The position numbers and the translations under genes are program-made. Below are positions 49,435 through 52,736 of a DNA stretch of 64,000 nt, in pieces (the stretch's first letter is position 1; each line of letters starts with the position of its first letter). Source of the DNA: Bifidobacterium sp. (lineage in GTDB: Bacteria; Actinomycetota; Actinomycetes; Actinomycetales; Bifidobacteriaceae); contig JALCNP010000004.1 in NCBI GenBank assembly GCA_022649135.1, positions 119,019 to 183,018 on the forward strand, in the 5' to 3' direction. The notes under the pieces were generated by a model. The model saw only the letters and a list, made by a program, of their open reading frames with translations, did no database searches and was not told the DNA's origin.

Positions 49435-49689
49435 CGGCGGTGCTCGTCTGCTGCTTCCGAAGCATCAATCCCGACGCCTTGCCCGCGGACGGATGTGCGG
49501 TTGCTTGTGCCTCCTCATTCCTCTCTCGTCCGACCGCCGTGTGTTGCGTACCGGCGCTCATGCCGCATTGACTGACATGTCCACATCGTGAACCCCCGGT
49601 TGTCGGCTGCCGTGTCGCGTGCGTATCTTGACAACTAATCGGGCGCAACGCTCGATGGAATTCATATGATCGAGAGGAGGTTCGCCACG

Positions 49690-49776
49690 ATGAACGGATT
49701 CGCTTCCGGTGTTTCGCTGCAGATGCAGCGCTTCGAGACCGCACGAATTATTAGCCCGTCTTCGCTGGCGGACTGA
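49690..49776 (+). CDS. Putative 28-aa leader peptide MNGFASGVSLQMQRFETARIISPSSLAD
   Basis: Strong Shine-Dalgarno (GAGAGGAGG, 9 nt spacing), ends upstream of a U-tract terminator, upstream of the MFS gene. Confidence 0.55.
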   Translation: MNGFASGVSLQMQRFETARIISPSSLAD

Positions 49777-49794
49777 TTCGGCAATCAGGCTTGG

Positions 49795-49869
49795 ACCCCG
49801 CCAACGGAGGCAGGGTATGCAAGCGTGGACATAATCCTCCTTTATACCCTGCATTCGTGCGGGGTTTTT
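49795..49869 (+). terminator. Attenuator/terminator structure in the MFS leader
   Basis: Nested pairs ACCCCGC/GCGGGGT (49795-49801 / 49859-49865) and GCAGGGTAT/ATACCCTGC (49810-49818 / 49844-49852), followed by TTTTTG. Confidence 0.6.
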
Positions 49870-49959
49870 GTTTCGCCCCACAAGGTCACCGCAGCAAGGC
49901 AAGTGTGAAGTTCGACAGGATGTACAGGCGCGTAACGCGCAGAGCATGGGGAGCAGACA

Positions 49960-51360
49960 ATGTCAACAGTCGAAAGTGCGACTGGTGTGCCGCAGTCCGT
50001 AGTGGGCTCGACGGCAGCAGACACGGGTGCAGTGGGAACCGCGGTAAACAAATTGGCGACGATGGCCCGGGATTCCGTGAGAACGGTCATCGCCGCGTCC
50101 ATGGTCGGCACCGCCATTGAATTCTATGATTTCTATGCGTATGGCACGGCGGCGGCGAACTATTTCCCCACGGTCTTTTTTGGTCAGACGGGAACCGCCG
50201 CGCTGATCGGTTCGCTTCTGACCTTCGCCGTGGCGTTCGTCGCCCGTCCGGTGGGGTCCATGGTCTTCGGGCATTTCGGAGACAGCATGGGGCGCAAGAC
50301 GACGCTCGTCGTCTCGCTTCTCACCATGGGTGTCGCCACTTTCCTCATCGGCTGCCTGCCGACCTATCGGATGTGGGGCGGCGCCGCGGTCGCGCTTCTG
50401 GTCGCGTGCCGTTTCGTGCAGGGAATCGGATTGGGCGGGGAGTGGTCCGGGGCCGCGCTCGTCGCGACCGAGAACGCCCCCGAAAGCAGACGCGCCCTCT
50501 ACGGGTCGTTCCCCGAGCTCGGTGCGCCGATCGGCTTCTTCCTGTCGAACGGAACGTATTTCCTGCTGGAGATGTTCAACGGCTCCGATGCGATGCTGGC
50601 ATGGGGGTGGCGGGTGCCTTTCCTGCTGTCGTCGGTCCTGGTGATCGTCGGTCTCGTCGTGCGTGTGCGGATGGAGGAGACTCCTGTCTTCCGGCTGGCC
50701 CGGGTGCAGAACAAGGTCGTCAAATCACCTGTGAAGGTCGTGTTCGCCACGAGCTGGCGGCAGGTTCTGCAGGCGACCTTCGTGGTTGCGGTGACCTATA
50801 CGTTGTTCTATACCCTGGCGACATGGTCGCTGGCTTGGGGCACCAAGACGAAGGCTCAGGGTGGCGGCGCGTTGGGGTTCAGCAATGAGGAGTATCTGCT
50901 GATGCTGATGATCGCGGTCTGCGTGTTCGCCGCCTTCATCGTCGTGTCCTGCCTGCTCGCCGACAGACTCGGCCGCCGTCGCATTCTGGTGTTCTCCTCC
51001 TGCGCACTGGTCGTGTTCTCCCTGGTCTTCCCGTATCTGCTTATGGGCGAAGGCAAGCGGGATTTCGTCGCGGTCCTGGTTTTCCTGTGTGTGGGGTTTG
51101 CCCTCATGGGCATGGCGTTCGGTCCGATCGGAGCGTTCCTTCCGGAGCTGTTCTCGGCGAATGTGCGGTACTCGGGTTCGGGCATCGGATACAATCTCGC
51201 CGCCATCATCGGCGCCGCCTTCGTCCCCACGATCGCCACATGGCTGTCCCACAACTGGGGCGTTCGGTCCGTCGGCCTGTATCTTGGGGTGATGGCCGTG
51301 TGCTGCCTTGTTGCGGTGGCAACATGCAGGGAGACGCGGGACGCCGATTTCACCCGGTAG
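49960..51360 (+). CDS. MFS transporter, metabolite:H+ symporter (MHS)-like
   Basis: AASMVGTAIEFYDFYAYGTAAANYFPTVFF, RPVGSMVFGHFGDSMGRKTTLV, GEWSGAALVATENAP. Confidence 0.88.
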   Translation: MSTVESATGVPQSVVGSTAADTGAVGTAVNKLATMARDSVRTVIAASMVGTAIEFYDFYAYGTAAANYFPTVFFGQTGTAALIGSLLTFAVAFVARPVGSMVFGHFGDSMGRKTTLVVSLLTMGVATFLIGCLPTYRMWGGAAVALLVACRFVQGIGLGGEWSGAALVATENAPESRRALYGSFPELGAPIGFFLSNGTYFLLEMFNGSDAMLAWGWRVPFLLSSVLVIVGLVVRVRMEETPVFRLARVQNKVVKSPVKVVFATSWRQVLQATFVVAVTYTLFYTLATWSLAWGTKTKAQGGGALGFSNEEYLLMLMIAVCVFAAFIVVSCLLADRLGRRRILVFSSCALVVFSLVFPYLLMGEGKRDFVAVLVFLCVGFALMGMAFGPIGAFLPELFSANVRYSGSGIGYNLAAIIGAAFVPTIATWLSHNWGVRSVGLYLGVMAVCCLVAVATCRETRDADFTR

Positions 51361-51680
51361 ACTTCCTGTCCCACGGGTTTCACCCGCGTGCAGGTTCATC
51401 CCCGCGTCGATCCGTCCATCGGACATCAACCAATCCATTCATCACATACAGGAGAATCGGGAGGAAAATTCCGGAACCTGTGTCAATCTTCGAACATCGG
51501 CCCGGATGGGTCGTGGTTTCGGGTAAGATGGGCAACGGTTCAGGGACAAAATCCCTTCGATTCGTCAATGTCGGTCACTAGCGTAAGCCAACAACTGAAA
51601 ACGGTTCATCAGCGATTCCGGCAATTCTCAATGTCATCACACATATTCATATCCACATCCATATAAAAGGAGCACATAAC

Positions 51681-52736
51681 ATGGCAGCACAAATCTGGTA
51701 CGAGGGCGACGGCGATCTTTCCGTTCTGAACGGCAAGAAGGTTGCGATCATCGGTTACGGCTCGCAAGGGCATGCCCATGCGCTGAACCTGCGTGATTCC
51801 GGTGTCGACGTCGTCGTCGGTTTGCGCCCCACCTCGAAGTCGGTCGAATTCGCCAAGGAACAGGGGCTTGAAGTCAAGTCCGTGGCCGATGCCGTCAAGG
51901 AGGCCGACGTCATCATGATCCTGGCTCCCGATCAGTATCAGGCGCAGATCTACAAGAATGACATTGAGCCGAATATGAAGGAGGGCGCGGCCCTTGCCTT
52001 CGCCCACGGTTTCAACATCCATTACGGCTACATCAAGCCCACGGAGGACCACCCGGTGTTCATGGTCGCGCCCAAGGGGCCGGGCCATATCGTGCGCCGC
52101 GAATACGCGGCCGGCCGCGGGGTCCCCGTTGTGGTGGCGGTCGAGCAGGATCCCCGTGGCGATGGATGGGCCATCACCCTCGCCTACGCCAAGGCTTTGG
52201 GTGCGCTGCGTGCAGGGGCCATCAAGACGACCTTCACGGAGGAGACCGAAACCGATCTGTTCGGTGAGCAGGACGTGCTGATGGGCGGCGTGAACCATCT
52301 GGTCGAGTGCGGCTTCGAGGTCCTCACGGAGGCCGGCTACCAGCCGGAGATCGCCTATTTCGAGGTGTGCCACGAGCTGAAGATGCTCGTCGATCTGATG
52401 AATGAGGGCGGCCTGAACAAGGCCCGCTGGTCCTGCTCCGACACGGCCCAGTATGGCGATTTCGTGTCGAAGGTCGTGGACGAGTCCACGAAGGAGCGCA
52501 TGAAGTTCCAGCTCAAGCGTATCCAGGACGGGTCCTTCGCCAAGGAGTTCATGGATGATCAGGCTGCCGGCGCGCCGAGGTTCAAGGCTCTTCAGGAGAA
52601 GTACAGCCACGAGAAGATCGAGGAGGTCGGGCCGAAGCTTCGCGCCATGTTCTCCTGGAACAAGGGCGCTGCGGCCGACGCCGACGAGACGGATTCCTTC
52701 ACCGGAAAGATCGCGCGCGCCCAGGTCCAGGGCTGA
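51681..52736 (+). CDS. ilvC: Ketol-acid reductoisomerase
   Basis: [67 protein letters not shown]. Confidence 0.96.

Follow-up and report, generated by a model that had tools for sequence, protein, structure and literature searches.

A conserved, apparently undescribed six-segment leader attenuator upstream of an ilvC-linked MHS transporter gene in Bifidobacterium, probably sensing isoleucine

The window analysed here is a 64,000-nucleotide stretch of a Bifidobacterium sp. assembly (GCA_022649135.1, contig JALCNP010000004.1, positions 119,019 to 183,018), in which an MHS-type MFS transporter gene is preceded by a leader with a short ORF and followed by ilvC (Table 1). The transporter protein matched TIGR00883 (metabolite/H+ symporter) best and over its full length, with 392 bits versus a cutoff of 443. 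By reading the window sequence directly, the AGGAGG Shine-Dalgarno (49675-49680), the ATG (49690-49692) and the 28 codons ending at TGA (49774-49776), as well as the segments CCGCACGAAT (49739-49748), ACCCCGC (49795-49801) and ATTCGTGCGG (49853-49862), were all found where a preliminary description of this DNA had placed them, with a T-tract at 49865-49869 on the 3′ side of ATTCGTGCGG. The intrinsic terminator that it had proposed 5′ of the MHS gene was independently called at 49846-49865 by a terminator scan, and the 231-nt leader was predicted to fold more stably than its dinucleotide shuffles (z = -4.05, 0/200). Further upstream, 75 of 98 leaders have a YYTANNNT motif, the putative -10 box of the leader promoter, at 38-62 nt 5′ of the Shine-Dalgarno, compared with 0-3 in shifted windows.

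Table 1. Features of the leader and the genes downstream of it, in window coordinates
Feature	Coordinates	Strand	Basis
-10-like TATCTT, putative leader promoter	49624..49629	+	YYTANNNT motif across leaders
Shine-Dalgarno AGGAGG of leader ORF	49675..49680	+	sequence; in all leaders examined
Leader ORF, 28 aa, MNGFASGVSLQMQRFETARIISPSSLAD*	49690..49776	+	98 homologous ORFs, common end (RII..), variable N-terminus
Control codons CGA ATT ATT (Arg-Ile-Ile)	49744..49752	+	near-invariance, local rarity, A-site folding
Protector hairpin P0, ORF end self-folded, hides segment A	49744..49780	+	predicted
Segment A, antiterminator 5′ arm, final ORF codons	49761..49771	+	A:B pairing, covariation
Segment B, partner of A (antiterminator), C, or E	49795..49808	+	pairing, covariation
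Segment C, partner of B (OFF) or D (ON)	49809..49817	+	pairing
Small hairpin GGACATAATCC in C-D loop	49827..49837	+	GACAHAATC in 22/81 leaders
Segment D, terminator 5′ arm	49845..49852	+	D:E pairing, changes on both sides
Segment E, terminator 3′ arm + T-tract	49859..49869	+	terminator scan, D:E pairing
MHS-type MFS transporter gene, proposed regulated gene	49960..51360	+	Pfam Sugar_tr/MFS_1
ilvC, ketol-acid reductoisomerase, next gene	51681..52736	+	TIGR00465 + NF004017 above cutoff; synteny

Leader matches were detected by BLAST in 79 of 112 Bifidobacterium genomes, and a covariance model, derived from 77 leaders out of the 81 BLAST-found loci that were read, identified the leader in 87 of the 112 and added seven genomes from another genus of Bifidobacteriaceae. 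Among 396 genomes of the order, the model yielded two matches outside Bifidobacteriaceae (E 0.004-0.006), the number expected by chance; the 55 stretches that exact-pattern matching across 84,980 species turned up were all in Bifidobacterium records, and the weak second matches in two Bifidobacterium genomes (G047 and G039) contained no leader. A Shine-Dalgarno and an ORF were present in all 98 leaders examined, and in all of the 97 that could be scored (97/97) the first ATG 3′ of the Shine-Dalgarno shares the reading frame of the core. The N-terminus of the ORF differs widely in sequence and length, the length changing by whole codons, while the peptide ends in RII(I/S)PSSLAD or a variant and the distance to the stop codon is fixed in most leaders. 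This genus-wide presence and the in-frame ORF, revealed by comparing the upstream regions of relatives, bear out the view that the leader is real and conserved; it is an apparently undescribed attenuator of an already known class.

Aligning the 77 leaders revealed four successive pairings with shared segments, A:B, B:C, C:D and D:E, having 96%, 85%, 91% and 98.4% of their cells paired, respectively; in the window, 49761-49771 and 49798-49808 are the two arms of the antiterminator A:B, and local pairing of 49846-49852 with 49859-49865 gives the terminator. Across 92 distinct leaders, A:B and D:E together had both sides changed in 82 cells, against 24.6 ± 5.5 after shuffling (0/500), and with divergent leaders included 96.7% of their cells were paired versus 35-56% in slid registers, both figures being biased towards the structure, to which the underlying alignment was fitted. 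The leaders of the L038 clade (L038, L040, L041, L043, L044, L050, L051, L055, L061, L063 and L074) retained the helices with an insertion of ∼40-50 nt in the C-D loop. The protector hairpin P0 was predicted for nearly all of the 56 distinct leader-end forms among 98 leaders, its arms being preserved through different base pairs in divergent clades (CUCGCC:GGCGAG, AGCCCG:CGGGCU and AGCUUGUC:GAUGAGCU); inside the close leader set, significant covariation was not found for P0. As an alternative protector, a helix between segment A and the stretch 3′ of the Shine-Dalgarno was considered and set aside; it was favoured in 48 of 77 no-ribosome folds and scored slightly better than cross-pairings (16.7 versus 15.9), but is less general than P0. 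The conserved architecture is that of a six-segment, his-like attenuator, comprising a protector hairpin, the antiterminator A:B + C:D and the terminator D:E, and alignment and folding agree with the early suggestion that the leader holds mutually exclusive structures, here A:B + C:D versus D:E.

Within the ORF, and always in frame, three successive codons were nearly invariant, namely CGA in 98, AUU in 97 and AUU in 95 of 98 leaders, and the base that follows them was A in 98/98. By comparison, CGA makes up only 5 of 107 Arg codons and AUU 12 of 120 Ile codons in the local genes, so that such near-invariance of locally rare codons indicates selection on nucleotides or codons and not on the residues alone. 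To relate these codons to structure, the RNA ahead of the ribosome was folded at each codon, with the RNA ending after D and the ribosome front edge set 15 nt past the first P-site base. A:B and C:D formed jointly in 77/77 leaders only with CGA, AUU or AUU (codons -10, -9 and -8) in the A site; they formed in 67/77 at codon -7, in 57-70/77 upstream of -10, in no leader at codon -6 or any later one as far as the stop, and in 9/77 without a ribosome. Thus, the invariant codons are those where a stall gives antitermination in every leader. Codon counts and folding hence speak for the Ile codons as control codons, a stall at AUU AUU favouring the antiterminator, and the dependence of A:B + C:D on the A-site codon in silico fits the control by ribosome position that the preliminary description had put forward.

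Equilibrium folding of the full leader was discarded as a test of state, since the terminator won at every ribosome position; antitermination must therefore be kinetic, as in known attenuators, and was modelled solely by ending the RNA after D. For the window's own leader, C:D was predicted with the ribosome at any position, so the OFF state there would use B:E and not B:C.

The leader combines in silico the features of its class, i.e. an ORF with a Shine-Dalgarno, pathway-related control codons, an intrinsic terminator and an antiterminator freed by a stall, and most probably acts as a ribosome-mediated six-segment leader-peptide transcription attenuator sensing charged tRNA-Ile. Without a ribosome, the ORF end would fold on itself into P0 and hide A, B would pair with C, and D:E would terminate. 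With ample Ile, the ribosome would reach the stop codon and cover A, leaving B:C and D:E, and transcription would stop as well. Upon Ile shortage, we infer, the ribosome would stall once AUU (or CGA) enters its A site, opening P0 and leaving A free; A:B and C:D could then form, E would have no partner, and RNA polymerase would read through into the MHS transporter gene. The computed findings are the conservation, the helices, the invariant codons, the stall window and the associated genes; this direction of regulation, like the signal and the substrate of the transporter, is inferred. Each leader has just two or three Ile codons, with Val or Leu control codons absent, and Ile is the likely sensed amino acid; Arg might be a co-signal, CGA being as invariant as the Ile codons.

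A response to slow decoding of CGA, by way of Arg-tRNA or a general slowing of translation, instead of to Ile would explain why this locally rare codon is invariant in 98/98 leaders and why stalling at an A-site CGA likewise yields A:B + C:D in 77/77. We consider it improbable, because AUU nearly always fills the next two positions, control falls on ilvC and neighbouring genes and not on Arg genes, and the CGA nucleotides are also paired in P0. Less probable still is a nascent-peptide arrest in which the RII peptide senses a ligand in the ribosome tunnel: although the RII residues are kept in all leaders, rare Met excepted, and the stop codon distance is mostly fixed, the residues flanking RII vary freely (RIIISPSAS, RIITKPSMAE, RIISLSSLMS), and it is the nucleotides that are conserved, down to the initial A of the next codon (98/98). 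We give equally little credence to a translation-independent element, i.e. a protein- or ligand-binding leader whose ORF is incidental. The strong nucleotide conservation and the recurrent small CAHAA-loop hairpins would suit it, but the starts are in frame in 97/97 leaders with the ORF retained while its N-terminus shifts by whole codons, the helices reach into the ORF at just the place where they would compete with a ribosome, and no Rfam family, T-box included, covers the leader at the gathering threshold.

The antiterminator proposed here, formed by the last ORF codons with segment B, differs from the helix first envisaged, in which the Thr-Ala-Arg-Ile codons (17-20) pair with the terminator 3′ arm. 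CCGCACGAAT and ATTCGTGCGG are complementary at 10/10 positions in the window, and this 10-bp match is particular to this genome; among the 77 aligned leaders the outer CCGC:GCGG is kept, and three of the inner pairs, A-U, C-G and A-U, occur in 14/77, 15/77 and 36/76, respectively. With nothing conserved beyond CCGC:GCGG, the helix was ruled out as a conserved switch, the conserved antiterminator using the last ORF codons; strong covariation was seen for A:B and D:E. Furthermore, the Thr-Ala-Arg-Ile segment would lie within the ribosome during a stall at these Ile codons and so could not serve as antiterminator; that the helix is nonetheless a working switch in this species, as its full complementarity in the window would allow, is hardly credible given its lack of conservation and this position. 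The other pairing originally drawn for the terminator 3′ arm, ACCCCGC:GCGGGGT, stands as a possible one, with 93.5% of its cells paired across the 77 leaders; one of its pairs is nevertheless broken in 15/77, which makes it secondary to D:E (98.4%).

The order leader, MHS gene and ilvC was kept in nearly every locus long enough to judge, and the element was found in 85 of 85 genomes having the ilvC-linked MHS ortholog. Beyond those 85, it occurs in just two Bifidobacterium genomes, 5′ of a BASS transporter gene, ilvC or an MHS paralog, while 13 genomes without an ilvC match were also without the element. Three copies were identified in B. moraviense (G079), directly 5′ of ilvC, 5′ of a BASS gene and, more weakly, 5′ of an MHS paralog; in B. 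vespertilionis (G015) one copy lies 5′ of the MHS and one 5′ of a BASS gene, another genome (G017) has one 5′ of BASS, and a sister-genus genome (G296) has one 5′ of MHS and one 5′ of ilvC. Copies thus lie directly 5′ of ilvC in two genomes and 5′ of BASS in three. Synteny and these copies uphold the proposed link to ilvC and branched-chain metabolism, and the copies 5′ of ilvC, BASS and the MHS paralog support a role in branched-chain amino acids; the MHS transporter, a permease or exporter in the preliminary description, would most likely serve in the uptake of isoleucine or of some branched-chain precursor. In the genome of the window, a second MHS paralog (contig C9:64796-66118, 51% identity) carries no leader copy.

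BASS genes were detected in 58 of 112 genomes and the attenuator on only three of them (L084, L085 and L079), which encode closely related proteins, so that the leader of the BASS gene was likely acquired recently. Pantoate is derived from an intermediate of the valine pathway. The BASS protein scored 139 bits against Pfam SBF (cutoff 24.3) and below cutoff for the TIGR00841 and PanS models, and the solved structure most similar to it in sequence is that of a BASS transporter (3zux, 8oyf), which we take to be ASBT_NM. Pantoate binding has been reported for ASBT_NM (PMC10645422), and this link together with the likeness is at most a hint that the substrate is a branched-chain keto acid or something related. 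Tentatively, the specificity of the attenuator may lie in the invariant string of rare codons CGA-AUU-AUU, which would double as sensor codons and protector hairpin arm, and the attenuator may control in Bifidobacteriaceae a small branched-chain regulon made up of ilvC and mutually interchangeable transporters (MHS, BASS), possibly with a shared CAHAA-loop hairpin bound by some factor.

The his attenuator of enterobacteria is a six-segment leader-peptide type with control codons upstream of the antiterminator arm. The Bifidobacterium leader likewise forms protector, antiterminator and terminator from alternating neighbour pairings with its codons so placed, but it has Arg-Ile-Ile codons only, an unrelated sequence and a transporter gene as target. 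The E. coli ilvGMEDA leader (ilvL) is also a multi-state leader-peptide attenuator with Ile codons; sensing of Ile, Val and Leu by many codons and control of biosynthesis are features of ilvL. Closer in phylogeny, the Corynebacterium ilvBNC leader (ilvB-II motif), described there for Corynebacterium only, encodes an I/L/V-rich peptide of 15-17 aa 5′ of ilvB (PMC10272879, PMC11857589) and thereby offers a precedent. Both are actinobacterial leader ORFs with branched-chain codons, an antiterminator and a terminator 5′ of an ilv gene, whereas the Bifidobacterium leader apparently has another sequence and occurs only 5′ of MHS, BASS or ilvC in Bifidobacteriaceae. A comparative attenuator prediction in Actinobacteria by Seliverstov et al. 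(2005), which included B. longum and reported a cysteine leader 5′ of cbs there, does not contain the CGA-AUU-AUU leader (PMC1262725), and no published description of it was found in the openly searchable main texts of the literature. Bifidobacteria gain from it a specific, testable amino-acid attenuator. Regulation, and not homology, would place the ilvC-linked MHS and the BASS proteins, both orphan transporter groups, in branched-chain amino acid supply, and the uptake or exchange of these amino acids, or of the corresponding keto acids, by bifidobacteria of the gut would become open to direct testing.

Besides the attenuator, a hairpin with the loop CA[A/C/T]AA was observed ∼85-156 nt 5′ of ilvC in 49 of 61 loci, often shortly 3′ of a -10-like box and with compensated arms (GGGA/UCCC, AAGGA/UCCUU, UUGGAGA/UCUCCAA), and 22 of 81 attenuators have it again in their C-D loop. 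GGACAHAATCC was rejected as a genome-wide regulon motif, as the 20 matches checked beyond ilvC and the leaders had no common gene, many of them falling within unrelated coding regions or a single non-coding repeat; the genome of the window has it at two sites only, 51543-51555 and 49827-49837. Right after the terminator T-tract, CCCACAAGG (49877-49885) is conserved in most MHS leaders, where the site often forms a hairpin whose loop is CACAA or CAAAA and whose arms vary.
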